DNA from: Bacteroidia bacterium
Lineage (GTDB): Bacteria; Bacteroidota; Bacteroidia; Flavobacteriales; Flavobacteriaceae
Direction of reading: 5' to 3'
DNA length: 64,000 nucleotides
Assembly (NCBI GenBank): GCA_030432635.1
Contig: JAUIMB010000016.1
Location: 1-64,000, forward strand
In this document: positions 37,373 through 50,740 of the stretch, piece after piece
Layout: the number at the start of each line of letters is the position of its first letter
How positions within the stretch are numbered: the stretch's first letter is position 1
Notes under the pieces: generated by a model
The model's database searches: none
Told to the model about the DNA's origin: nothing
What the model saw: only the letters and a program-made list of their open reading frames with translations
Position numbers and translations under genes: made by a program

Positions 37373-39076
37373 TTACGTTTGTAAGAGTTGTTTCTTTGGA
37401 AGGATCGATTGCAATAGGCAAGCTATAAAAATGACAATAATACAACCTACGAAATTCAACCATAGGAAAGGCAAATTGATGAAATCATACTTGTCTAAAA
37501 AGAAAAGTCCGATTACTATAAACTGTGTCATTAAGGCAGCAACAAATACAGCATTTCCTTTTACGAATTTGAAGAAGAATGCCAACAGGAAGATGCCTAG
37601 CACATTTCCATAGAAAATCGATCCTATGATATTTACCAATTGAATGAGATTCTCAGCCAAATTAGCCACGCAAGCCACACCAATGGCTAGAATTCCCCAA
37701 GCTAAAGTAAACCATTGCGAGGTTTTGACCATTTCGGTTTCTGATTTTTCAGACACGTTACGTTTATATAAGTCCATCGTAGTAGTACTTGCCAGAGCAT
37801 TCAATTCACTTGAGGTACTCGACATCGCTGCACTTAAGATAACGGCCAATAATAAACCTATGAGTCCTCGAGGTAAATTATTTAGAATAAAATTGATAAA
37901 GACGTAGTCCTTGTCATTGCTTTCCACCTTTAGGTTTTGCGCTATACCTGCTTGTTCAATCAGCTCGCGTGCTTCAGCTCGCAACACGTCACTTTCAGAG
38001 TTTAATTTGGCGATTGCGTTTGAGTTCGCTTCACTAGAGTTGGCTACAAATTGATTAATTATTGTTTTTTTCTCATCAAAGATGGCTTGCTGTTTGTCTT
38101 GAAGCGCTATGTAGTCATTTGCATATTCCGAATTCAAAACAACTTCAGTGGCTGTCGGATTAAAGTTTACAGGAGCAGCATTAAATTGATAGAATACGAA
38201 TACCATAACACCAACCAATAGGATAAAAAATTGCATAGGTACTTTTAAGAGACCGTTAAACATCATACCAATTTGCATTTCCTTTAAGGATTTACCTGAA
38301 AGGTAGCGTTGCACCTGACTTTGATCAGTTCCAAAGTAAGAGAGCATTAAAAATGTACCACCAATAAGACCAGACCAAACGGTATAACGATTGTTAAAAT
38401 CGAATGAAAAATCAAGGACTTCCATTTTGCCACTGGCACCAGCAATTTCTAGGGCATTTGTGAAGGTAATGCCTTCAGGTAATTTGTCAATAATTAAAAA
38501 GAAAGCAATCAGCATTCCTGAAAATATCACAATCATCTGGTGTTTTTGTGTCACATTAACAGCTTTGGTTCCACCAGAGACCGTATAGATAATAACCAAT
38601 ACACCTATGAGAACGTTCAATAGCAATAAATTCCATCCCAAAACTGCAGATAAGATGATGGCTGGAGCAAAAATGGTAATTCCTGCAGCTAGGCCTCTTT
38701 GAATTAAAAATAAAATGGCCGTAAGCGTCCTGGTTTTTAAATCGAAGCGACTTTCCAAAAATTCATAGGCTGTATAAACCTTCAGTTTATGGTATAATGG
38801 AATGAAAACCATACAAATGACCACCATGGCAATCGGCAATCCAAAGTAAAACTGAACGAAACCCATACCATCATTAAAGGCTTGTCCAGGTGTAGAAAGA
38901 AAAGTAATGGCACTAGCTTGGGTTGCCATAACCGATAACCCAATGGTCCACCATTTGGAAGTGTTTCCACCTTTCAAGTAGTCTTTAACATTTTTGCTGC
39001 CACGCGATTGATAGGTGCCATAGGAAACAATGAGTAGTAAAGTGCCAGCAAGTACGATCCAATCTAATGTTTGCAT
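37373..39076 (-). CDS. Sodium:solute symporter (SSS family)
   Basis: 567 residues from ATG 39076 (beginning MQTLDWIVLAG); longer readings run through the upstream microprotein. It has about 13 membrane helices with the SSS traits TKAVNVTQKHQM and SAAMSSTSSELNALAS. Between two helices, about residues 305-390, there is a long hydrophilic insertion with coiled-coil character (DKQQAIFDEKKTIINQF...), unusual for the family. It follows the microprotein by one base and the deacetylase in the same operon, suggesting it takes up a deacetylated product. Confidence 0.92.
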   Translation of the reverse strand: MQTLDWIVLAGTLLLIVSYGTYQSRGSKNVKDYLKGGNTSKWWTIGLSVMATQASAITFLSTPGQAFNDGMGFVQFYFGLPIAMVVICMVFIPLYHKLKVYTAYEFLESRFDLKTRTLTAILFLIQRGLAAGITIFAPAIILSAVLGWNLLLLNVLIGVLVIIYTVSGGTKAVNVTQKHQMIVIFSGMLIAFFLIIDKLPEGITFTNALEIAGASGKMEVLDFSFDFNNRYTVWSGLIGGTFLMLSYFGTDQSQVQRYLSGKSLKEMQIGMMFNGLLKVPMQFFILLVGVMVFVFYQFNAAPVNFNPTATEVVLNSEYANDYIALQDKQQAIFDEKKTIINQFVANSSEANSNAIAKLNSESDVLRAEARELIEQAGIAQNLKVESNDKDYVFINFILNNLPRGLIGLLLAVILSAAMSSTSSELNALASTTTMDLYKRNVSEKSETEMVKTSQWFTLAWGILAIGVACVANLAENLIQLVNIIGSIFYGNVLGIFLLAFFFKFVKGNAVFVAALMTQFIVIGLFFLDKYDFINLPFLWLNFVGCIIVIFIACLLQSILPKKQLLQT

Positions 39077-39077
39077 T

Positions 39078-39173
39078 TTAGAAAGCTTTAGTGATGAAGT
39101 AAAATGCAATGATGTAGATGATATTGGCAGCAAGTACCAGAGTATACATCGTATTCCATTTGTATTTTTTCAT
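39078..39173 (-). CDS. 31-residue membrane microprotein upstream of symporter
   Basis: Reading ATG 39173 to TAA 39078 gives a 31-residue protein: a charged start (MKKYKWNTM), one hydrophobic helix (about 10-27, YTLVLAANIIYIIAFYF) and the end ITKAF. The symporter ATG follows after one base. Small single-helix companions of sodium symporters exist (for example YhdT with PanF and DUF4212 with ActP), so a stabilising or regulatory subunit is plausible. No homology is proven here. Confidence 0.7.
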   Translation of the reverse strand: MKKYKWNTMYTLVLAANIIYIIAFYFITKAF

Positions 39174-39198
39174 AGTGATTTAGTTCAGAAAGGGTTAG

Positions 39199-41697
39199 TT
39201 ATAGTTCGTTTTTCCCTAAGGATAACATGTTTGCAAATAAGCGATAAGCTCCTGATACGCCTGCCGGAAATTCTCTAAAGAAACTCAGTCCAGTGTAGAC
39301 ATAATAGCCTTGGCCATGTTTTGCGACGAGTAAGCTGCCTGTTTTAGGAGACTCGCCTTTGTCGTGCATGGATAGGATGGATGTAAATTCAGGGGACCAT
39401 TCACTAGGAAAGTAAAGACCACGTTCTTGTGTCCACCCATTAAAATCGGCTGCAGTTATTTTATTCGGAAAGTTTAGCACTTCATGATTGGTTGACAATA
39501 GCGTTACAGGTGCGTTTTCATCAGTCACTCGGTCTCTGGATAAGGTCAAATCATATGGTGCAATTCGATCAACTTTAATGCGATGACTGGTGTTGTACTG
39601 AACGATCATGTTTCCACCTTGGGCCACATAGTCAAATAATAACTGTTGTTTAAAATTTAAGGTTTCAATAGTATTATAGGCTCTAATGCCAACAACTATG
39701 GCATCAAACATTTTGAGATTCTCTGCTGAAATATCCTCTGGTTTCAAAACAGAGACATTATACCCAATTTGTCTAAGACTTTCGGGTACGACATCGCCCG
39801 CACCTTCAATATAACCTATGTTTTCACCACGCTTTTTAATATCCAATCGAACGACCTTGCTTTCGCTAGGAAGCAATACGGTTTGAAATGGAATGTGGTT
39901 ATAATCAATTTCAACAAGTTCTCGAGTATAGGTTTTATTTCCAACTTTTACCATTGGTGTTATCAATCCTTCACTTTGATTTTTTGGAGGGATAATTGTA
40001 AAGATTACTTTTTGAGTGTCACCTTTGTTGGCAATACTTACTTTTTGTGTCTTAGGATATACTTGCCAACCGTCAGGATAAGCCATTTCAACACTGCCTT
40101 CAACATTTGCTCGTCCAGCTTTGATGATGACTTCAACATCTTTTTGTTGGTCATTCTCAAAAATATAAACGTCTTCGGTTAGTGCAGCCGTCACTTCATA
40201 AATAACTTCGAACGGTTTGTACAATTCACCCTTATCAGGTTTAGAATAGCGATAAACAATCGGTTTGGTGATGGTAATTGGTGTTTTATCGATGAGCAAA
40301 TTGAAATCTACATTGAAAATTCGTGGTGTTTCGGGTAATCCAATGAGCGCAGAACTCACTTTATACATGCCTAAAGTACCTTTTTGTGCTAACCAATAAG
40401 GTGTTGTTGGTTGTTGGTTTTTAGGAATCTTTATCGCTTCCTTAAACTCGAATTTTGAGTTGTTTGTAAGGTGTATATCTTTAAATATTTCGAGATTTTC
40501 CGAAGTCGAGATACTTCTTAAAAGCACAGGTTGTTCACTTCTATTTAGGACTTCAATATTTAAATTGATGGTTTCGCCTGGTGTCGCCCAATGACTTTCT
40601 GATGATGCTTCCAAATACATTCCAGCACATGCCTCAATGATGGATTTAATTTCCTTGGTTTTGATGGCTCTCCAATGGGCATCCTCAATTTTTGAAATGA
40701 GTTGGTATGCCTGGAGCAATACAGGAAGGTGTTCTGTGGGATTTGTAAAGTTGAAGTTGTTTTCCACATCATGGAGCAGTTGACCAATCTGTTGACCACC
40801 AGCGATTCTATTCCAGCTCGTATCGATACCTTCAAATACATTATCACTTCCATTTAAAGGATCACCTTTCAAAAACTCTATAAATTCTTCCTGCGTACCA
40901 CGTGTCGTCATACGCCCAAATCCTTGACATAAATGCTGACTGCTGGCAATTGAGGCCAGTTCATTATTGGATACACCTTTTAAAGGATAATACACACCAA
41001 TATCGACTGAAATCATATTACTTTTGTCTATTTTATCAAAGGCTTCTCGACTGCCATAACGCCACCAAGAGGTGTTGTAAAACAAACGTTTTGGTTGCCA
41101 CAGCGTTGTGTTTGATAGTTGTTCTGAATACGCTGTTGGGTCGTTAGCAAGCTCAAAGGCTTCCATGCTCAAAAGTGCTGAAGCTGTATGGTGCCCATGG
41201 GTTCGACCTGCTCTTCTATGGTCAAACCTGTTGATAATTACATCAGGTTTAAATTTTCTAATGGCTAAAACCACATCATTCAACACTTCCTTTTTGTCCC
41301 ATATGGCTAAGGTTTCATCTGGATGTTTTGAATACCCAAAATCATTGGCTCTGGTGAACATTTGTTCACCTCCATCTATTCGCCTAGCTGCTAGCAATTC
41401 TTGTGTCCTCATCACGCCAAGGAGTTCCCTTAGTTCGGGACCTATTAAGTTTTGACCACCATCACCACGTGTTAATGAAAGGTAAGCTGTTCTTGCCTTA
41501 ACCTCGTTAGACATGTACGCAATGAGCCTTGTATTCTCATCATCAGGATGTGCGGCTACATATAATACAGAGCCAAGAAAATTTAACTTCTGTATTGATT
41601 CATATATTTCGGAAGCGGTAGGTTTTTTAGGTGATTGAGCATTTATAACTCCGAAGGAAAGCAAACTCAGAAAGAGTAGGCGTAATCTTGTTTTCAT
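39199..41697 (-). CDS. Secreted PIG-L family deacetylase
   Basis: 832 residues from ATG 41697, which begins a signal peptide (KTRLRLLFLSLLSFGVINAQ). The N-terminal PIG-L/LmbE domain (about 30-290) has the zinc motif AAHPDDENTR and the later THGHHTAS. These remove acetyl groups from GlcNAc-type substrates. The C-terminal 500 residues are beta-rich plus an alpha/beta region with GAGDVVPESLRQIGYNV, FDAIVVGIRAYNT. It is exported to the periplasm or surface and leads the operon with the microprotein and symporter. Confidence 0.9.
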   Translation of the reverse strand: MKTRLRLLFLSLLSFGVINAQSPKKPTASEIYESIQKLNFLGSVLYVAAHPDDENTRLIAYMSNEVKARTAYLSLTRGDGGQNLIGPELRELLGVMRTQELLAARRIDGGEQMFTRANDFGYSKHPDETLAIWDKKEVLNDVVLAIRKFKPDVIINRFDHRRAGRTHGHHTASALLSMEAFELANDPTAYSEQLSNTTLWQPKRLFYNTSWWRYGSREAFDKIDKSNMISVDIGVYYPLKGVSNNELASIASSQHLCQGFGRMTTRGTQEEFIEFLKGDPLNGSDNVFEGIDTSWNRIAGGQQIGQLLHDVENNFNFTNPTEHLPVLLQAYQLISKIEDAHWRAIKTKEIKSIIEACAGMYLEASSESHWATPGETINLNIEVLNRSEQPVLLRSISTSENLEIFKDIHLTNNSKFEFKEAIKIPKNQQPTTPYWLAQKGTLGMYKVSSALIGLPETPRIFNVDFNLLIDKTPITITKPIVYRYSKPDKGELYKPFEVIYEVTAALTEDVYIFENDQQKDVEVIIKAGRANVEGSVEMAYPDGWQVYPKTQKVSIANKGDTQKVIFTIIPPKNQSEGLITPMVKVGNKTYTRELVEIDYNHIPFQTVLLPSESKVVRLDIKKRGENIGYIEGAGDVVPESLRQIGYNVSVLKPEDISAENLKMFDAIVVGIRAYNTIETLNFKQQLLFDYVAQGGNMIVQYNTSHRIKVDRIAPYDLTLSRDRVTDENAPVTLLSTNHEVLNFPNKITAADFNGWTQERGLYFPSEWSPEFTSILSMHDKGESPKTGSLLVAKHGQGYYVYTGLSFFREFPAGVSGAYRLFANMLSLGKNEL

Positions 41698-41718
41698 GTT
41701 GTAATAGTTAGCTAAAAC

Positions 41719-41726
41719 CAAATATA
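41719..41726 (-). promoter_or_regulatory. -7 box (TATATTTG) for the deacetylase-symporter operon
   Basis: Exact match on the minus strand, 21 bases before the chosen ATG 41697. A weak -33 (ATTG, 41743-41746) lies 16 bases further upstream. Confidence 0.6.
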
Positions 41727-41960: not shown

Positions 41961-42728
41961 ATGACAACAACGGAGTTTAGCCCTATCATTAAGGTTATCG
42001 AAGAAGCCTATGAAATTCCGCATTTGAATGCAACACGAAAGATTTCAGCATTATTGCCACACGATTACTATCATACCGATAAACGCTATCCTGTGTTATA
42101 TTTGCAGGATGGACAAAATTTATTCAATCCTTTGGCACCTTATGGCGATTGGGCCATAGACAAATCCATGGCAAAATTGGCTGAACAAGGATTTGGGGAT
42201 TTGATCATTATTGCAGTAGATCACGGTGAAGAAGAGCGCATTAGTGAATATTTGCCTTACTATCATCCGCGTTTTGGAGAAGGTAAAGGGAAATTCTATA
42301 TCCAGTTCATGATTGAAAAACTGATTCCGTATATCAATAAAAATTACAGAACTCTTCCCGATTTTGAGCATACTGGAATTGGCGGAAGTTCAATGGGAGG
42401 TTTAATTAGTCTTCATGCAGGACTTAAAAATCCAGGGGTTTTTGGCAAGATGATGATTTTTTCACCAAGTCTTTGGATTTCAAAAATGATTTTTGATCAT
42501 ACCAAAACCTTCAAGCCATTGGAAGAATCAAAAATCTATTTGTATGCAGGAGGAAAAGAAAGCATTGAGCATTTGCCTAATGCACAAAAATTAGGAAGCA
42601 TTATCAAGGAGAAAATGATTAATGGCTATCATATTGATTTTCATTTTTCTATTAACGATGAAGGGAGCCATGCAGAAATCTATTGGCGACAAGAATTCCC
42701 AAAAGCAATTAAATGGCTCTTTTTTTAA
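41961..42728 (+). CDS. Esterase A of the amidoligase cluster (PF00756-like)
   Basis: 255 residues, cytoplasmic, no signal peptide. The alpha/beta hydrolase fold shows YPVLYLQDGQNLFN, a nucleophile elbow GGSSMGGLIS (Ser), and a late His in EGSHAEIYWRQEFP. Related enzymes are the enterochelin and carbohydrate esterases. It is the first gene of the plus-strand arm and is followed after 10 bases by the aminopeptidase. A similar esterase (50027) leads the opposing arm, which supports a linked pathway. It could hydrolyse an ester or thioester intermediate. Confidence 0.88.
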   Translation: MTTTEFSPIIKVIEEAYEIPHLNATRKISALLPHDYYHTDKRYPVLYLQDGQNLFNPLAPYGDWAIDKSMAKLAEQGFGDLIIIAVDHGEEERISEYLPYYHPRFGEGKGKFYIQFMIEKLIPYINKNYRTLPDFEHTGIGGSSMGGLISLHAGLKNPGVFGKMMIFSPSLWISKMIFDHTKTFKPLEESKIYLYAGGKESIEHLPNAQKLGSIIKEKMINGYHIDFHFSINDEGSHAEIYWRQEFPKAIKWLFF

Positions 42729-42738
42729 ATCTTGGATT

Positions 42739-44151
42739 ATGACATATAAACACATCAAGTCTCTTGATACGACCACGGATTTTATCATTCCTTGTGGAAA
42801 GGATCATCTCAAAACCATTGCAGATTTCATTCCAATTAAAACGCCCGATTTCGATGGCAGTTTTGGAAGTTATCAATTGATTTATGGAACTCATGGCAAT
42901 CGTATTTATCTGTTGGGAATAGGAGAGGAAAAAGAAGCTCCTAAAATGGAGGAAGCCTTCAGAAAGTTATGTTTTGAAACCCAAAAGCATTGGGATAAGA
43001 CGATTCAGGTGTACGCTGAGGATTTGTTGGATGATGATATCAAAAAGGCTGTCGTTGGAATGGAAATGGCACAATATGTTATTGGCGAATTCAAATCCAA
43101 GAAAGACAAACTGAAAAATGTAAATGTTGCGTTTGTATCTTCAAAAGCAATCAAAAAAACACTTAGTGAAGGTAAATGTACTGGTGAAACCATCAATCGC
43201 ATCAAAGCATTGGTTGATGCACCTCCAAATGTAAAAACACCAGAATTTTTAGGAAATTGGGCCAGTAAATCAGCGAAAAAACACGACTATAAGTGTACCG
43301 TATTAAAACAAAAGCAACTTGAGAAACAAGGATTCAAAGCCGTCTTGTCTGTTGGGCGAGCTAGTGTGAATCCGCCTGTGGTTATTATCAATGAATACAA
43401 AGGCAAAACAACAAAAAGCGTTGATATTGCCTTGGTCGGAAAAGGAGTAACTTTCGATTCAGGAGGTCTATCAATTAAGCCATCCACAAATTTGCACTAC
43501 ATGAAAAGCGATATGGGTGGAGCTGCAGTGGTTTTAGGTATAGTGGAACTTATTGCGAAATTGAAGTTGAAAATCAATGTCGTAGGAATTGTAGCTTCTG
43601 CAGAAAATGCTGTCGGTTCCGATAGTTATAGACCTGGTGATGTGATTGGGTCCTATTCAGGAAAAACCATAGAAATTATTGATACTGACGCAGAAGGACG
43701 ATTGTGTCTTGCTGATGGTATAAGTTATGCCATAAAAACATTTAAACCAGAATATCTAATTGATTTGGCAACGCTAACTGGAAGCGTCGTTCGTACATTG
43801 GGTTATGCAGCTGCTGGAATGTTCACCAAGGATCAAGACATGGCCAATGCGATGTCAAATTTAGGAAACCAAGTGCATGAGCGTGTATGGGAATTGCCGT
43901 TATATGAGGATTTTGAAAGCGATTTGCATTCCGATGTTGCTGATATCCGGAATTTTAGTGGTTTACCAATTGCAGGAGCAATCAATGCGGCTAAATTTTT
44001 GGAAGCGTTTACCGAAAATCATGAGAAATGGCTTCATTTGGATATTGCTGGTGTATCTTTCGGAAGTTCCTCTTATGCCAAAATGAAAAGCGCTACAGGC
44101 TTTGGTATTCAGTTGATGTTGAGATTTATTCAGGAAAAAGCATCCAATTAA
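42739..44151 (+). CDS. M17 family leucyl aminopeptidase
   Basis: 470 residues from ATG 42739 (MTYKHIKSLD); the longer frame would run into the upstream esterase. The catalytic domain is clear: GKGVTFDSGGLSIKPS, KSDMGGAAVVLG, ENAVGSDSYRPGDVI and NTDAEGRL-type DTDAEGRLCLAD, carrying the two-metal ligands. It removes N-terminal amino acids from peptides. In this cluster it may trim the ligated product or provide amino acids; inferred. Downstream is an ATP-grasp enzyme. Confidence 0.93.
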   Translation: MTYKHIKSLDTTTDFIIPCGKDHLKTIADFIPIKTPDFDGSFGSYQLIYGTHGNRIYLLGIGEEKEAPKMEEAFRKLCFETQKHWDKTIQVYAEDLLDDDIKKAVVGMEMAQYVIGEFKSKKDKLKNVNVAFVSSKAIKKTLSEGKCTGETINRIKALVDAPPNVKTPEFLGNWASKSAKKHDYKCTVLKQKQLEKQGFKAVLSVGRASVNPPVVIINEYKGKTTKSVDIALVGKGVTFDSGGLSIKPSTNLHYMKSDMGGAAVVLGIVELIAKLKLKINVVGIVASAENAVGSDSYRPGDVIGSYSGKTIEIIDTDAEGRLCLADGISYAIKTFKPEYLIDLATLTGSVVRTLGYAAAGMFTKDQDMANAMSNLGNQVHERVWELPLYEDFESDLHSDVADIRNFSGLPIAGAINAAKFLEAFTENHEKWLHLDIAGVSFGSSSYAKMKSATGFGIQLMLRFIQEKASN

Positions 44152-44197
44152 TTTTGGCTTTTTCATAATTTTACACCCTACTTTAAACTAAAGAGAC

Positions 44198-45400
44198 ATG
44201 TCAGAAAGCGCTAAGAATTTTCTATGTATTTCAACTTATTTCAAGGGTCAGGACTTTCTAAAAAGTTGCAAGGCTGATGGAAACAATGTGTTTCTATTGA
44301 CGAAAAAGAAACTCGAACACGAAGCTTGGCCTTGGGAAGCTATTGACGATGTGTATTATATTAATGATTGGAATGAACATAATGTCATCAAAGGTATTGC
44401 CTATAAGTTTCGGGAGTTGAAGTTTGATCGATTTGTGGCTTTGGATGATTTTGATGTGGAAAAGGTCGCTATGGTGAGAGAGCATTTTAGAATGCCAGGA
44501 ATGGGACGTACAACGTCGCATTACTTTCGAGATAAATTGGCCATGCGAATGAAAGCCAAGGAGGAAGGCATCAACGTGCCTGAGTTTACCTCGTTGTTTT
44601 ACAATGGTGATATCAACGACTATATAGAACGTGTGAGTCCACCTTGGTTGCTCAAACCACGTTTGGAGGCTTCAGCTACTGGGATTAAAAAATTACACTC
44701 CAAGGAAGAGTTATGGAAAATTGTTCATGAGCTTGGTGATGAACGTGATAATTATTTGGTTGAAAAATTTGCGCCAGGAGATGTGTATCATGTTGACGGA
44801 CTTAATGTTGACGGAAAAGTTGTGTTCTCTCGAGTGAGTAAATATCTTGACACGCCTTTCGAAGTGGCTCATGGTGGAGGGATTTTTAAATCAGCTACTT
44901 GTGAAATTGGGTCAAAAACTGAAAAAGCGCTTCAAAACATGAATGTTCAGGTGATGACAGCCTTCGGAATGCAATTTGGTGCATCTCATACAGAGTTTAT
45001 TCAATCGAAGGAAACAGGCGCATTATTCTTCCTTGAAACGTCGTCAAGAGTAGGAGGTGCCAATCTTGCCGAAATGGTCGAATTTGCTTCAGGAGGCATC
45101 AATCTTTGGGCTGAATGGGCTAAAATTGAGTGCGCTAATCTAAAGAAAGGCAAGTATAAATTGCCAAAAGTAGATAATAAATATGCAGGAATCATTGTCT
45201 CGCTGAGTCGTTACGAACATCCAGATACCTCTAGTTTTAACGATTCTGAAATCGTTTGGAGAATGCATAAGCCATGGCACATTGGTTTGATTGTATGTTC
45301 AGAATCGAGTGAACGTGTTCTGGAATTGCTCCATCACTATGAGCAACGAATCGCTAAAGATTTCCATGCCAGCTTGCCTGCTCCAGATAAATCTGAATAA
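44198..45400 (+). CDS. ATP-grasp ligase 1 (carbamoyl-phosphate-synthase type)
   Basis: 400 residues. ATP-grasp_4-like core: PWLLKPRLEASATGIKKL (ATP lysine and loop), YLVEKFAPGDVYHVDGL (ATP strap) and HTEFIQ...FFLETSSRVGGANLAEM (metal-binding Glu residues). Such enzymes join a carboxylate to an amine using ATP. Substrate unknown. It is the last gene of the plus-strand arm and converges on ATP-grasp 3. Confidence 0.88.
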   Translation: MSESAKNFLCISTYFKGQDFLKSCKADGNNVFLLTKKKLEHEAWPWEAIDDVYYINDWNEHNVIKGIAYKFRELKFDRFVALDDFDVEKVAMVREHFRMPGMGRTTSHYFRDKLAMRMKAKEEGINVPEFTSLFYNGDINDYIERVSPPWLLKPRLEASATGIKKLHSKEELWKIVHELGDERDNYLVEKFAPGDVYHVDGLNVDGKVVFSRVSKYLDTPFEVAHGGGIFKSATCEIGSKTEKALQNMNVQVMTAFGMQFGASHTEFIQSKETGALFFLETSSRVGGANLAEMVEFASGGINLWAEWAKIECANLKKGKYKLPKVDNKYAGIIVSLSRYEHPDTSSFNDSEIVWRMHKPWHIGLIVCSESSERVLELLHHYEQRIAKDFHASLPAPDKSE

Positions 45401-45608
45401 GACCAGAACATTAGATCAAAATAGCCGAGACTTTTTGAAGAGCGGTTATAACTATTGTTCAGAGCGTTTCATCCACAGAAGCTTAAGCAAAATTAAAAGC
45501 GAAGAACCGTATTTGTTTTGATATCTGCGTTTTTGAGACGATGCGCCATTTGATCCAGAATGATATTATTAGTGAAACAGGGTTTCAAGGAATTTCAGAA
45601 AATAGCGT

Positions 45609-46811
45609 TTACATTTCAAAAAAGCCTGTGCTGCCACCAACCCAAGTTTTATCCTTGTTGTATTTCACACCAACCATTTCACCTTTACTGAGACGAATCA
45701 AGTTACTGGCAATTTCAATTGTATCGGTTTTGCTATTATAAACCATCATCATTCGTACCTCACATTTGGCAGGAACATCCATGGTTTCAATAATTGGTGC
45801 ATAGGCGACTTTTTCCTGAAGGAGATAGTTTGATTTGTCGGCAAGACTGTCAATGGTATCTCGAGTCACATTAATATGAACTCCAGAGCCAGCAAATGAA
45901 AACAAGGGTTTCAGTACATAGTTTTCCAAATCGGAAGGAATGGTTTCCAATTTATCCAAAAGATAGGATTTTGGTGCATATTTGCTTTTGATGAGTGGCA
46001 TCATATACTTGCTAATTCTGAAGAACCAATTAGGATGTCCAACCCATTCCACATCAACGTCATCCTGAAATTTAAAGGCTCCTGTCAGATCAGTTCGTTG
46101 ATGTAATTCATCAAATATGATGCGGTTGTATATTTTTAAGATCTGAATGTCTTCACCTTGACCATCTGTATAAAACAATTGTTTCCCTTTACGCTTAAGT
46201 TCAGTTATGCAAACTGTTTTGATACCTAAAGCGGCTTCTGTGGCATAGAAATCAATGGCTGTGGCTTGTTGATCAGGTTCAACCTCAAGGAGGACGACTT
46301 GTTTCGGATTGGTATCACCAACAATTTCATGTCTTAATAATTCAACATATTCATCTGTGGTCATGCCATTAAGATGTTGCGAATACCCATTGGGAATGGC
46401 ATCGCCAAAATGCTTGCGATACATGCGTCCTAATAATTCCTGAAAGAAATACAAGGATGGAAAACCTTGTAATTCAATCAACTTCGGAGTAAGCTCTCCA
46501 GCATCATCCTTACAAATCCCAAAGTCCAATTGTATAAATCGTGGTCGGTCATCTTCATTAGGAACTATGGTATTTTCATCAAAGAAAGCACCTTGGGTCA
46601 ATGCCTTAAAGTTTGGCTGATTGATGACATCCATGATTTCAGCAACAGCTTCCAATAGTTTTTCCTTCAATGCTTTAGGAATAAACACAGGTGTTTCCGA
46701 AATTTTAAATCTTGGAACATAATCAAATGCTTCATTAATATCTTTTAGGAAGGCATTATATTTTGCGTCTGAGAATTGCGCATTATAGACATTTCGATTG
46801 CTTGTTATCAT
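45609..46811 (-). CDS. ATP-grasp-like ligase 3 (conserved, unassigned)
   Basis: 400 residues. Fold signs: YVLKPLFSFAGSGVHI resembles the ATP-grasp lysine/glycine loop, LLQEKVAYAP the strap, and KCEVRMMMVYN a later strand; RFIQLDFGICKDDAGELTPKLIELQ precedes them. The order may be permuted relative to typical ATP-grasps. No named family is certain. It closes the minus-strand arm of the cluster, 6 bases after the amidotransferase. Confidence 0.7.
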   Translation of the reverse strand: MITSNRNVYNAQFSDAKYNAFLKDINEAFDYVPRFKISETPVFIPKALKEKLLEAVAEIMDVINQPNFKALTQGAFFDENTIVPNEDDRPRFIQLDFGICKDDAGELTPKLIELQGFPSLYFFQELLGRMYRKHFGDAIPNGYSQHLNGMTTDEYVELLRHEIVGDTNPKQVVLLEVEPDQQATAIDFYATEAALGIKTVCITELKRKGKQLFYTDGQGEDIQILKIYNRIIFDELHQRTDLTGAFKFQDDVDVEWVGHPNWFFRISKYMMPLIKSKYAPKSYLLDKLETIPSDLENYVLKPLFSFAGSGVHINVTRDTIDSLADKSNYLLQEKVAYAPIIETMDVPAKCEVRMMMVYNSKTDTIEIASNLIRLSKGEMVGVKYNKDKTWVGGSTGFFEM

Positions 46812-46817
46812 TGTCAG

Positions 46818-47630
46818 TTATGACATTAAAGGTTGCTTGATATGGTTGATGGCCTTAGTGATGAATTTTGGTAGAATGGTTTCATAGGTCATAATGATTT
46901 TATCAGGATCGTCCATTCTATCCATCATCTGTTCATATTTTTTGATGCCGAAGTTGTCAATGACAATATGTTTGTTTTCATCTTTTTCAAAATGTGTCTT
47001 CATTCCAACAGGATCAGCTTCTGGGTGAAACTGCGTACCGACAAATTCATCTGAAAAACGTACCGCCATTATTGCACGTTCCAATTCGACATGCGTACGG
47101 ATTTTTTCCAAACTCAAAATGGTTGCGCCATGTTCTTGAAATACTTTCAATCTAGGTTGAATCAATTGCCAATCCCTAGAATCTACGGCATAAAATGGGT
47201 CATTTAAGCCTTCTAGTAAACGGTCCTTCCGACCAGCTTTTGTTTTGTGAACCGGTAAGATTCCGAAAGAGGTACTTTTCCGAAGTTTGATTTCTCCCAA
47301 TTCAAAATAGTCACACATGACCTGAAAGGAGTAACAGATAAAAAACACATGCTTCTTCCTTTCATCTGAACTTTTATTATAGTCCCAAAGTTCTTGCATC
47401 AACTCTAAATACGAAGATCTCCAAGACCCTTGTTCCAACGGACTTCCTGGTCCACCACTCGAAATATAAATATCATAGGAAGCATCGGGAATTTCGTTCT
47501 TTGCACGAACGTCATACACTTTGTAATCGAGTTCCTTATTAAAAAAACTGGCAATATCCACGATACAACGCAAGCCTTGGTTAGGCTCGTTGTTGTTCAT
47601 GTCCAATATGGCTAATTTTAATTTTTCCAT
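46818..47630 (-). CDS. Class I glutamine amidotransferase
   Basis: 270 residues. Nucleophile Cys in FFICYSFQVM, and the His-Glu pair in GTQFHPEAD, complete the GATase1 triad. It can hydrolyse glutamine to supply ammonia, or act as a gamma-glutamyl hydrolase like PuuD. In the cluster either activity is possible: ammonia donor for the ligases, or editing of the product. It lies between the GCS2 enzyme and the third ligase. Confidence 0.9.
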   Translation of the reverse strand: MEKLKLAILDMNNNEPNQGLRCIVDIASFFNKELDYKVYDVRAKNEIPDASYDIYISSGGPGSPLEQGSWRSSYLELMQELWDYNKSSDERKKHVFFICYSFQVMCDYFELGEIKLRKSTSFGILPVHKTKAGRKDRLLEGLNDPFYAVDSRDWQLIQPRLKVFQEHGATILSLEKIRTHVELERAIMAVRFSDEFVGTQFHPEADPVGMKTHFEKDENKHIVIDNFGIKKYEQMMDRMDDPDKIIMTYETILPKFITKAINHIKQPLMS

Positions 47631-47657
47631 GAAATACTTGTAGGTTAATGTTTTGGG

Positions 47658-48755
47658 TTAGTCTATACCTGAAACCGTTTGTTCCGTAATATAATCGACT
47701 ACTTTCTTAAGGTCATTTGTGTCCTTATATACAGCAAGTTGCCTATCGGCTCCTGTTCCGTTTTTAAGCATTTGCTTTACATATTCAATCTCCTTTCGAG
47801 AACCCAGTTCATCAACAACATCATCAACAAAATCGAGTAATTCATAAATCAAATCCTTGGTATCAACTTCACACTCTTTCCCAAAATCAATCATTTTTCC
47901 GTCAATACCATAGCGAGCACCTCGCCATTTATTTTCATTGATCAAAGCCCTATGGTATATCATGAAATTGAGATTTTGGGTTCTCAATTTGTGTAATTTG
48001 GCAACTAGCGCTTGAATTAATGCTGCGATACTTAAGGTTTCATCAATAGTTAATGGCACATCGCAGATTCTTATTTCTATGGTTGGATAGGTTGGATGTA
48101 TGCGAATGTCCCACCAGATTTTCTTTGGGTTATCGATGCAGTTGGTTTTTACCAATAAATCCACATAGTTTTGGTATTGCGCGTAGTTATCAAAAATACC
48201 AGGAATTCCTGTACGAGGAAACTTGTCAAATATTTTCGATCGATACGATTTAAAACCAGTGTTGCGTCCTTCCCAAAACGGTGAATTTGTTGATAGCGCA
48301 TATAGATGAGGTAAAAAATAGCGCATCGAATTCACCAAATGCAATGCCATGGGTTTGTCGGCTATACCAACATGAACGTGCAATCCAAAAATTAGGTTTG
48401 ATCGCGCAGTATCCTGCAATTCATTTATAATTTGATCATAACGTGGATTAGGTGTAAGAAGCTGGGTTTCCCATTTAGAAAACGGATGTGTACCAGCTGC
48501 TCCAATTTTAAAACCTAACGTATTGGCTATAGCTGAAATGGATTTCCGCAGATGCGTGATTTCTCGTCTTGCATCGGTCATGTCCTGACAAATATTGGTA
48601 CCAACCTCAACCACTGCCTGATGCATCTCTGCCTTAACTTGATCGTTTAGCACTTTTGCAGCTTCTTCAACGATACGTTGGTCATGAGACACGAGCTCAC
48701 GAGTTTGAGGATCGATAACTTGATACTCTTCTTCTATACCTAATGTAAACTTCAT
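47658..48755 (-). CDS. Carboxylate-amine ligase, GCS2/YbdK type
   Basis: 365 residues. Typical start LGIEEEYQVIDPQTRELVSHD and later TIEIRICDVPLTIDET fit the glutamate-cysteine ligase family 2 (YbdK), which couples a carboxylate to an amine using ATP. The real substrates are not known; activity with glutamate and cysteine is described for some. A short hairpin (48770-48801) lies in front of the gene, behind the ATP-grasp 2 gene. Confidence 0.93.
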   Translation of the reverse strand: MKFTLGIEEEYQVIDPQTRELVSHDQRIVEEAAKVLNDQVKAEMHQAVVEVGTNICQDMTDARREITHLRKSISAIANTLGFKIGAAGTHPFSKWETQLLTPNPRYDQIINELQDTARSNLIFGLHVHVGIADKPMALHLVNSMRYFLPHLYALSTNSPFWEGRNTGFKSYRSKIFDKFPRTGIPGIFDNYAQYQNYVDLLVKTNCIDNPKKIWWDIRIHPTYPTIEIRICDVPLTIDETLSIAALIQALVAKLHKLRTQNLNFMIYHRALINENKWRGARYGIDGKMIDFGKECEVDTKDLIYELLDFVDDVVDELGSRKEIEYVKQMLKNGTGADRQLAVYKDTNDLKKVVDYITEQTVSGID

Positions 48756-48769
48756 AATGCATCAATTTA

Positions 48770-48801
48770 AGACCTGATCATTTGATATAATCATCAGGTC
48801 T
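48770..48801 (-). promoter_or_regulatory. Hairpin between ATP-grasp 2 and the GCS2 ligase genes
   Basis: AGACCTGAT (48770-48778) pairs perfectly with ATCAGGTCT (48793-48801), loop 14 bases, and has no T tract on the minus strand. It could be an RNA processing or stability element within the operon rather than a terminator. Confidence 0.45.
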
Positions 48802-48810
48802 ATAAATGTA

Positions 48811-50001
48811 TTACTTTTTTTTAGCTTTAGATACTGTAGTTCTTTTGCTCGCTGTGGTCTTTTTTGTCACTGCTTTTTTTGCTGCTGTAGCCTTTGTTGC
48901 AACTTTTTTAGCAGGTGCTTTTTTTACTACTGGCTTCCTTGCTTCGGCCGTTGTCTTAACAGCAGTTTTCTTAGCAATGGTTTTTTTGGTAGTAGCCCTT
49001 TTTGTAGGCGCTTTTTTAGCCACAGTTTTTCTTGTTGTTGCTTTTGGAGTCACCATTTGATCTTTTACAAAAGTTCCCCAAGTTAGGTTCATTTTGCCTT
49101 TTTTATAGGATTTTGCTTTTGCTATGGCTAAGTTGGCTGCATTTTCAACAATCCACTCAAAATTATCTTGACCAACAGAATGCACATCTGCATCTGGAGC
49201 AGGATTGCAGAAATCTATGGCATAAGGCACACCATCACGTACTGCAAATTCAACCGTATTGAAATCATAACCTAAAGCTTTGTTCAATTTTATGCAGTAA
49301 GTTTCAACAAGATCCAAAAGCTTTTTATCCACAGGAGGACCATCAATCACATAACGTAGGTGATGTGGATTTCTTGGTTCGTATTGCATGATATGGACAT
49401 TATCCGTTCCAAGGACATAGCATCTGAAATACTCTGTAAATTGAATTTCTTCTTGAAGCATCATCACCAAATTTTCTGTTTCTCCATGTTTGGCCCAAAG
49501 GTCTTCTGGGTTATCAACGCGATATACGCTTTTCCATCCACCACCATCATGAGGCTTCATGTAAGCAGGAAAACCAACAGTTTCGAACATTTTTTCCCAA
49601 TTGAAAGGGAACTTCATGTTTCTGAACGAATTTTCATCGGTATTTGGTGGTCGATGCGAAGTTGGTAAAATGAAGGTTTTTGGCACAGGAACACCAATTG
49701 ATTCCGCCAAGGCATTATTAAAGAATTTTTCATCTGCACTCCACCAAAACGGATTATTAATGACTGCGGTTCCTGTAATAGCAGCATTTTTCAGAAATGC
49801 TCTGTAGAACGGAACATCTTGTGATATTCGATCGATGATCACAGCATATTCATCAGATTTGGCCTGCTCAACCGTATCAATCAATACAGGTTCGGCAACC
49901 ATGTCCTTAATACCTTGCGCTTTTATTTTTTGATTCACTCTTTCAATGAAAGCCCACGGAAATGTATCTTCTTGTCCGAATAAAATTCCTATTTTTTTCA
50001 T
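48811..50001 (-). CDS. ATP-grasp ligase 2 with lysine-rich tail
   Basis: 396 residues. Residues 1-310 are an ATP-grasp domain: FPAYMKPHDGGGWKSVYR (lysine and glycine loop), LQEEIQFTEYFRCYV, TVEFAVRDGVPYAIDFCNPAPD (metal-binding strand). Residues about 316-396 are a low-complexity tail of Lys, Ala and Thr (about 25 Lys in 80 residues, almost no acid), like histone H1-type tails. Such a tail may bind nucleic acid or offer Lys amines for ligation. It is second in the operon, 26 bases after the esterase. Confidence 0.85.
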   Translation of the reverse strand: MKKIGILFGQEDTFPWAFIERVNQKIKAQGIKDMVAEPVLIDTVEQAKSDEYAVIIDRISQDVPFYRAFLKNAAITGTAVINNPFWWSADEKFFNNALAESIGVPVPKTFILPTSHRPPNTDENSFRNMKFPFNWEKMFETVGFPAYMKPHDGGGWKSVYRVDNPEDLWAKHGETENLVMMLQEEIQFTEYFRCYVLGTDNVHIMQYEPRNPHHLRYVIDGPPVDKKLLDLVETYCIKLNKALGYDFNTVEFAVRDGVPYAIDFCNPAPDADVHSVGQDNFEWIVENAANLAIAKAKSYKKGKMNLTWGTFVKDQMVTPKATTRKTVAKKAPTKRATTKKTIAKKTAVKTTAEARKPVVKKAPAKKVATKATAAKKAVTKKTTASKRTTVSKAKKK

Positions 50002-50026
50002 AATAGTATGGTAAGTTAATTAGTCT

Positions 50027-50740
50027 TTAATTGTTTGTGATTTTTGATAAATAATGTGGAAACATTTGTCGCCACAGTGGCCAATCGTGTTCAGCCCATT
50101 TCCGCTCGTCATACCAAAATGGTATGTTTTTTTGAGCTAGAATACCTGCCATTTTTTTATTGGCATCCAAGCAAATATCCCATTCCCCTACACCAAGAAC
50201 GATATCCATGTTCCATAATTCAGGATGGTTCGCATCTGGCATATAATCAACAGGGTTATTAAAAAATACGTTGTCATCATAATGGCCATCCATAAACGAT
50301 TTGATATCAAAAGAGCCACTCATGCTAAACATGTGGCTTACCTTTTCAGGGTGCCTGAAGGCAAAGTTCGCAGCTTGATAACCACCAAAACTTGGTCCTG
50401 CAACAGCTATTTTTTGCAAACCTTTATCATGGCATATCGTATTCACCAATTCATTCATGATGAACTCATCGTACCACACGTGATTTTGGGCACGTTGTGA
50501 TGGATGGATGTTCTTGTTATACCAGCTAAGCTCATTGATGCTGTCAGGACAATACAGGTGTATCAATCCTTGCTCAACAAACCACCTTGCCGATTCCACA
50601 AGTTTCATATCATAGCATTCGTTATGTTTGCCCATAGTTGTTGGAAACAAAATAACAGGATAACCTGCATGACCGAACTCGAGCATTTCAATATGAAGGC
50701 TCAAGGTTGGCGAATACCATTTGTGATGTTGTTGTTTCAA
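50027..50740 (-). CDS. Esterase B of the amidoligase cluster (PF00756-like)
   Basis: 237 residues, no signal peptide. Alpha/beta hydrolase with PVILFPTTMG, a nucleophile elbow PSFGGYQAAN (Ser), then a late Asp and His region (EWDICLDANKKM and EHDWPLWRQMFPHYL). It is the first gene of the minus arm, with promoter box at 50781. It resembles esterase A, but the two are diverged in sequence, so they probably act on different steps. Confidence 0.87.
   Translation of the reverse strand: MKQQHHKWYSPTLSLHIEMLEFGHAGYPVILFPTTMGKHNECYDMKLVESARWFVEQGLIHLYCPDSINELSWYNKNIHPSQRAQNHVWYDEFIMNELVNTICHDKGLQKIAVAGPSFGGYQAANFAFRHPEKVSHMFSMSGSFDIKSFMDGHYDDNVFFNNPVDYMPDANHPELWNMDIVLGVGEWDICLDANKKMAGILAQKNIPFWYDERKWAEHDWPLWRQMFPHYLSKITNN

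Follow-up and report, generated by a model that had tools for sequence, protein, structure and literature searches.

The 64,000-nucleotide stretch of DNA analysed in this study (referred to as the window; positions 1 to 64,000 of contig JAUIMB010000016.1, assembly GCA_030432635.1, Flavobacteriaceae) carries a cluster of eight genes at 41961-50740 which are predicted to encode four ligases, a thiol enzyme of the class-I glutamine amidotransferase (GATase) fold, a metallo-aminopeptidase and two alpha/beta-hydrolases. The eight proteins were scored against the Pfam and NCBIfam models. A preliminary description of this DNA had reported eight open reading frames (ORFs) in two converging arms, and all of them were recovered, three on the plus strand (arm 1, E1-M17-G3) and five on the minus strand (arm 2, E8-G7-GCS2-GAT-P4):

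E1, 41961..42728, plus strand: alpha/beta-hydrolase of the "putative esterase" family PF00756, 255 aa; opens arm 1
M17, 42739..44151, plus strand: metallo-aminopeptidase (PF00883), 470 aa
G3, 44198..45400, plus strand: ATP-grasp ligase, 400 aa
Convergent intergenic gap separating the arms, 45401..45608, no strand: no terminator-like site listed inside
P4, 45609..46811, minus strand: ligase of the glutathionylspermidine-synthetase/YgiC fold, 400 aa; closes arm 2
GAT, 46818..47630, minus strand: thiol enzyme of the class-I glutamine-amidotransferase fold, 270 aa
GCS2, 47658..48755, minus strand: YbdK-like carboxylate-amine ligase (NF010039), 365 aa
G7, 48811..50001, minus strand: RimK/R2K-like ATP-grasp ligase, 396 aa
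E8, 50027..50740, minus strand: alpha/beta hydrolase (PF00756/PF00561), 237 aa; opens arm 2

Homologous proteins measure 468-498 aa, so M17 most likely begins with the ATG at 42739 (470 aa) and not already at 42622, where its ORF has the earliest start codon. The intergenic distances in arm 2, from E8 downward, are 25, 55, 27 and 6 bases, which fits a single operon. The predictions of sigma-70 promoters (29 compared to 30.6 +/- 4.4 in shuffles) and of terminators (10 compared to 6.5 +/- 2.4) were uninformative.

Gene order and co-occurrence across Flavobacteriaceae were checked by a search for P4 in 37 relatives and 299 family genomes, the genome of the window being part of both sets and counted in each. 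P4 matches were detected in five of the 37 relatives and in 24 of the 299 family genomes, and 27 P4 places other than the window were fetched for the comparison of the gene order. All 27 contain E8-G7-GCS2-GAT-P4 contiguously on one strand, and E1-M17-G3 adjoins arm 2 in 12 of them. Of the 299 family genomes, those with G7 are precisely the 24 with P4, and G3 is present in 11, all within these 24 (hypergeometric p 7e-14). M17 was searched for in a sample of 80 genomes picked from the genus and family sets and was present in 13 of the 26 P4-positive compared to none of the 54 P4-negative genomes (p 3e-8); both p-values treat related genomes as independent, so that they overstate the strength of the association. 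Among the 23 P4-positive family genomes besides that of the window, the ten with G3 and the ten with M17 are identical. In genome G244 G3 and M17 lie together approximately 91 kb from P4, and in G003 M17 is located approximately 630 kb from P4, suggesting that the link is not only a physical one. The detection of M17 in seven of 14 control genomes from other groups indicates a widespread enzyme which is nevertheless tied to the cluster in this family. The copy in the cluster is the only M17 match found in the genome of the window, and among the Flavobacteriaceae tested the enzyme does not count as general housekeeping.

Gene order and co-occurrence exclude a chance neighbourhood within the family, and a functional coupling of the genes is strongly supported at this level. 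The earlier assumption that the genes act together is thereby supported by the co-occurrence of P4, G7, G3 and M17, although arm 1 is not obligatory. Likewise, the convergent orientation of the arms turned out to be the commonest arrangement, but other arrangements occur in relatives. It seems hardly credible that the eight genes encode unrelated housekeeping enzymes which became neighbours by accident: P4 and G3 homologs do stand without the others in many distant genomes, but this explanation is contradicted by the order and co-occurrence within the family and by the re-clustering of the genes in other families.

Beyond the family the functional coupling is partly supported. In a phylum sample of 395 Bacteroidota genomes P4 was detected in 114 and G3 in 80, and 66 of the G3-positive genomes were also P4-positive (Fisher p 4e-30, genomes taken as independent). 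Furthermore, a contig scan confirmed 589 P4 relatives, of which the best 80 were retained (named loci). By their titles these 80 apparently all belong to Bacteroidota and include Spirosoma, Chitinophaga, Algoriphagus, Flavobacterium and Saprospiraceae; Chitinophaga filiformis DSM 527 (L109) carries E8-G7-GCS2-GAT-P4, and both arms are present in a Flavobacterium or Gelidibacter isolate (L115, L058). The nearest relatives among these best 80 were found in Winogradskyella psychrotolerans (75%) and Arcticiflavibacter luteus (74%), which probably places the host close to Winogradskyella within the Flavobacteriaceae. Partner genes were counted on the same strand within 8 kb of P4, where some contigs end close by and the ORF caller can mask a gene beneath an overlapping ORF. 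Among the best 80 of 589, P4 was accompanied by G7, GCS2 and GAT in 38 cases, by G7 and GAT in 17, by GCS2 and GAT in four, by GAT only in three, by G7 and GCS2 in two and by none of them in 16; G3, M17 and E1 were located nearby in 25, 22 and 21 cases, respectively. Forty further P4 places were fetched from the 114 phylum matches and chosen to over-represent distant ones. In 23 of these at least one of the three partners was present (all three in 11, G7 and GCS2 in eight, GCS2 and GAT in three, G7 and GAT in one), and 17 had none. The unit thus varies beyond the family. The scattering of homologs, which the preliminary description had named as an argument against a common system, was not observed within the family; in distant lineages the set is looser and P4 is often alone. 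Finally, 19 places with G3 away from P4 were fetched, a twentieth region being the extension of a P4 locus, and G3 was recognised by the ORF labels in 16. E1-M17-G3 stand together in three of these 16 (L207, L214, L216), and G3 is accompanied by G7 and GAT in one (L210).

Several loci are rearranged or have exchanged individual members. In the order-level family f5, six loci (L033, L165-L169) show the order E1-M17-G3-E8-G7-GCS2-GAT-P4 in a single direction, and in L077, L079 and L080 G3 follows P4 on the same strand. In L174, L191, L196 and L197, which represent four families, a gene encoding a protein of approximately 340 aa occupies the GAT position between GCS2 and P4. The four genes form one BLAST cluster, and the two that were checked match Peptidase_M29 over the cut-off. 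Three species of one f33 genus (L210, L240, L241), in whose genomes no P4 match was detected, share a co-directional arrangement in which G7 is followed by a 453-471 aa gene and then by GAT, an esterase-like gene and G3. In L210, the only one checked, the gene in the P4 place was assigned to CP_ATPgrasp_2 and the hydrolase to PF00756. The M29 and CP_ATPgrasp swaps suggest that a ligase and a peptide-cleaving enzyme are the fixed roles and that G3 can be associated with G7 and GAT even where P4 is missing. For the cluster at 41961-50740 a circularly permuted ATP-grasp system was rejected, as none of the eight proteins matched the CP_ATPgrasp models at E 0.1 and only the f33 variant has such a protein.

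A Pfam-checked cyanophycin-synthetase gene lies convergent to and directly after P4 in L033 (10784-13414). Genes of the same BLAST cluster were detected in L165, L167 and L168 and a gene of the same length in L166, whereas it is absent in L169. A function of the cluster as cyanophycin accessory was rejected, since CphA is encoded on another contig in the genome of the window, so that the link in f5 appears to be lineage-specific.

The ligase P4 was difficult to name. Its score against PF03738 (GSP_synth; E 1.1e-4, 22.0 bits) is below the gathering score of 29.3, the P4 of L033 is likewise below it (17.9 bits), and no NCBIfam match was obtained at E 0.01. According to the fold comparison P4 shares the full-length fold with YgiC, YjfC and glutathionylspermidine synthetase (GspS), its fold relatives being the glutathione, glutathionylspermidine and trypanothione synthetases and YgiC/YjfC. 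Due to the score below the gathering threshold we regard P4 as a fold relative and not as a member of the GspS/YgiC/YjfC family, from which it also differs by the lack of an amidase domain and by its glycine-rich loop (SFAGxG instead of the SREGAN of YgiC). The fold relatives do not fix the substrate of P4. In this superfamily the carboxylate comes from gamma-glutamyl peptides or from other peptides, and the amine is an amino acid or a polyamine (PMC12568646 and the titles of structure entries).

GCS2 was assigned to PF04107 (E 4.4e-66, 223.6 bits compared to a cut-off of 21), passes the equivalog cut-off of NF010039 (538.8 compared to 371 bits) and has 1tt4 and YbdK (1r8g) as closest solved relatives. 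It is the sole GCS2 match of the genome and, unlike YbdK, shares an operon with two ATP-grasps and an enzyme of the GATase fold. Glutamate-cysteine ligases are among the GCS2 relatives and the fold of P4 is that of the eukaryotic-type glutathione synthetase, so GCS2 and P4 might together form glutathione as the main low-molecular-weight thiol. However, BshC, an enzyme of bacillithiol synthesis, is encoded in the genome (over the cut-off), which makes this role very unlikely, and the patchy occurrence of the cluster (24 of 299 family genomes) is unlike that of a main redox buffer.

The assignment of G3 to ATP-grasp_4 (PF13535) is borderline (E 3.9e-6, 27.0 bits at a cut-off of 27). Its closest solved relatives are the L-amino acid ligases 4wd3 (E 4.3e-19), to which the sequence similarity spans approximately 260 residues, and BL00235 (3vot, E 1.2e-10); in contrast to these enzymes G3 has an M17 aminopeptidase and an esterase as partners. 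G7 scored below the cut-offs of both TIGR00768 (rimK_fam; E 3.6e-7, 29.8 compared to 143.4 bits) and R2K clade family 2 (R2K_2, PF18299; E 0.0016, 18.8 compared to 26.2 bits). The three ATP-grasps of the preliminary description are therefore to be read as one borderline model match (G3), one fold match (P4) and weak model matches (G7).

G7 carries a C-terminal tail of 84 aa (window 48814-49065) that is rich in Lys, Ala and Thr and resembles histone H1. Tails of at least 30 residues past the conserved domain were found in 36 of 92 measured G7 proteins, all of them with a Lys content of 15% or more; their length is very variable across species (up to 181 aa), and many homologs have none. Since L033 harbours a complete cluster with a G7 without tail, the core reaction does not depend on the tail, for which the binding of a polyanion or of the product is conceivable. 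It might also indicate a modification of proteins or polymers in which G7 and P4 add residues, perhaps onto the tail itself, and GAT and M17 remove them. The similarity of G7 to RimK/R2K would be in line with such a function, and protein targets are predicted for the R2K clade in a survey of this group (PMC4431377). The presence of the long tail in only 36 of the 92 proteins and its absence from L033 rather make this function improbable, as does the lack of a small ORF recurring beside the core genes across families (ORFs below 70 aa not called). M17 enzymes, moreover, take short peptides with free N-termini. A small molecule is favoured as product over a protein or polymer. A few small ORFs do recur near the core genes, within close relatives. 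A graspetide or another ribosomally synthesised and post-translationally modified peptide (RiPP) was rejected as product, as no graspetide-type model was among the family matches and no small ORF of 70 aa or more recurs across families, and a LysW-type carrier was not seen.

GAT matches PF00117 (E 2.8e-11, 43.9 bits compared to a cut-off of 22.8) and its triad Cys99, His202 and Glu204 is invariant in all 28 loci. Its fold ties between free-standing class-I GATases, MetA acyltransferases and gamma-glutamyl peptidase 1 (GGP1), so that the previous naming as glutamine amidotransferase is consistent with model and triad but is one option only. Based on fold and triad GAT is predicted to be a glutaminase or a gamma-glutamyl peptidase. 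For an amidotransferase the neighbouring ligases could act as the partner that receives the ammonia; the M29-type peptidase gene in the GAT position of four loci from four families fits better with a hydrolase. Class-I GATase-fold gamma-glutamyl hydrolases are known in GGP1, according to its structure entries, and in PuuD.

M17 was identified by PF00883 (E 6e-112, 374.4 bits compared to a cut-off of 25) and contains the motifs VGKGVTFDSGG, SDMGGAA and TDAEGRL. The residues K238, D243, D261, D320, E322 and R324 (numbered from window 42730) are invariant in the 13 full-length rows out of 14. The scores against the leucyl aminopeptidase equivalogs (NCBIfam PRK00913 series) remain under their cut-offs (391.3/468, 390.6/432 and 382.5/415 bits). 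In L030 (16438-19129) the full M17 gene is separated from G3 by ORFs that include a short additional M17-like one, as if an insertion had interrupted the arm.

Both esterases match PF00756 (E1, E 1.2e-28; E8, E 3.8e-9). E1 has the motif GGSSMGG with Ser143/Ser144 and, in addition, His237, invariant in the 12 full-length rows out of 13; in E8 Ser117, Asp188 and His218 are invariant in all 28 loci. They share 20% identity over 171 columns (E 0.004) and are thus not recent duplicates. The two esterases had been described as related, which applies to the family but to little beyond it, and a relatedness as weak as this tells little about whether the arms act together.

Families and folds agree with the earlier view that the enzyme set suits the synthesis of amides or peptides. 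We give about an even chance to the interpretation that the eight genes constitute one carrier-free pathway, independent of non-ribosomal peptide synthetases (NRPS), which makes, trims and recycles a small peptide or peptide-amine of the gamma-glutamyl type. Gene order, co-occurrence, catalytic motifs and folds form the observed basis of this interpretation, from which we infer substrates, step order and product. In a first step GCS2 would consume ATP to couple glutamate, or an acid resembling it, through the gamma-carboxyl group to the amino group of a compound X, forming gamma-Glu-X. P4 would then activate the carboxylate of the peptide and amidate it, with an amino acid, a dipeptide or a polyamine as the possible amine. 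Where present, G3 would supply a dipeptide, and the RimK-like G7 may add a further residue. GAT would act in the manner of a gamma-glutamyl peptidase and strip the gamma-glutamyl group or, less likely, provide ammonia for a terminal carboxamide, and M17 would trim or recycle the product through N-terminal cleavage. E8 and E1 may cleave an ester or amide of the product by hydrolysis and thereby serve release, detoxification or turnover; this role of the esterases is the weakest part of the proposed pathway.

A more specific version, which we put forward only tentatively, is a glutathione-like system distinct from glutathione in which the gamma-glutamyl moiety serves as a removable protecting and recognition group. 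GCS2 would attach this group, P4 and the ATP-grasps would extend the peptide, and GAT or an M29/M17 peptidase would strip the group or recycle the product. Both M17 and M29 peptidases release N-terminal residues. The synthesis of glutathione-like peptides has been proposed in a previous study (PMC2588565) for other ligases of GCS2 size located beside a GATase-like thiol peptidase.

The neighbourhood of a ligase with glutamine-synthetase fold and a class-I GATase-fold enzyme may instead reflect the scavenging of amines or peptides with a removable gamma-glutamyl tag, similar to the putrescine (Puu) pathway, where GCS2 would tag the imported compounds, peptidases would process them and GAT, whose fold we take to be like that of PuuD, would free the glutamate. 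In one f43 genus, three species (L193, 7636-10239; L234; L235) have a sodium-solute symporter whose reading frame continues into P4, its upstream part being broken in two of them, and the symporter is adjacent to P4 in another genus (L192). M17 and M29 peptidases recur near the core genes, as do YtcJ-type amidohydrolases, which were detected at a distance of up to 1.5 kb in eight loci (L171, L172, L173, L182, L185, L187, L188, L201; PF07969 in the two checked, L172 and L201), beside a lone P4 in six of them and between GCS2 and GAT in two. However, no symporter was found next to P4 in four other f43 loci (L236-L239), and in none of these f43 loci, with or without symporter, does P4 have G7, GCS2 or GAT beside it. 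Taking furthermore into account that three ATP-grasp ligases exceed the need of such a pathway and that no oxidase, dehydrogenase or aminotransferase is among the eight genes, scavenging seems unlikely.

Several observations have to be set against the proposed synthesis pathway, in which the substrates of all members are predicted ones. Arm 1 is optional, as G3 is missing from 13 of the 24 family genomes with P4 and M17 from 13 of the 26 P4-positive genomes in its sample, and the p-values overstate the strength of the co-occurrence. The distance correlations between P4 and its partners (r 0.73-0.97) lack a control pair and were not used as proof. P4 does not reach the cut-off of PF03738 and deviates from YgiC in its glycine-rich loop, and the fold of GAT fails to separate a peptidase from an amidotransferase or acyltransferase. 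In the phylum sample 14 of the 80 G3-positive genomes have no P4, and P4 stands without G7, GCS2 and GAT in 16 of the best 80 of 589 relatives and in 17 of the 40 phylum loci. The 17 of these best 80 that keep G7 and GAT without GCS2 indicate that GCS2 is dispensable somewhere. Furthermore, 12 of the 16 G3 places away from P4 have neither M17 nor G7 or GAT nearby, suggesting that outside the family G3 homologs serve other settings too. Finally, no nspC match was detected in the host, other polyamine genes not having been looked for.

The cluster has individual features in common with several known systems. The E-64 and dapdiamide pathways likewise combine an ATP-grasp with a second amide-forming enzyme without NRPS, but the cluster lacks an epoxide-making oxygenase, and no ANL-type amide synthetase is among the eight genes. 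The Puu pathway shares the glutamine-synthetase-fold ligase and the class-I GATase-fold hydrolase, whereas the cluster has no oxidoreductases and comprises extra ligases and an aminopeptidase. The LysW/ArgW pathways with LysX/ArgX have the RimK-like ATP-grasp and the logic of a metallo-peptidase in common with it. Since the folds are known and the chemistry is mostly known, we place the set among the carrier-free amide-ligase pathways and do not consider it categorically new. A literature search, whose coverage did not extend to the amidoligase survey of Iyer 2009, yielded no paper recognised as describing the eight-gene set.

P4 is without an NCBIfam name despite its presence in 114 of 395 sampled phylum genomes. 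Should the product prove to be a small, conserved peptide-amine, it would be a common metabolite of a major bacterial phylum that has so far been missed. If the gamma-glutamyl moiety indeed acts as a removable group, the loci would yield a new class of peptide or peptide-polyamine conjugates across many families of the phylum, overlooked for want of an NRPS or RiPP signature. For biocatalysis, the loci are in addition a source of free-standing amide-bond enzymes. As M17 occurs only together with P4 in the Flavobacteriaceae tested, its substrate should lead to the product.

In the divergent neighbour region of E1 (37373-41721, minus strand) a gene similar to the sodium-solute symporters of other loci was detected by BLAST, together with a gene encoding a protein of 840 aa which presumably resembles a PIG-L/LmbE deacetylase. 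Two genes of sizes matching this pair likewise adjoin E1 in L032, and relatives of the window symporter with 82-85% identity are present in L031 and L057 too.

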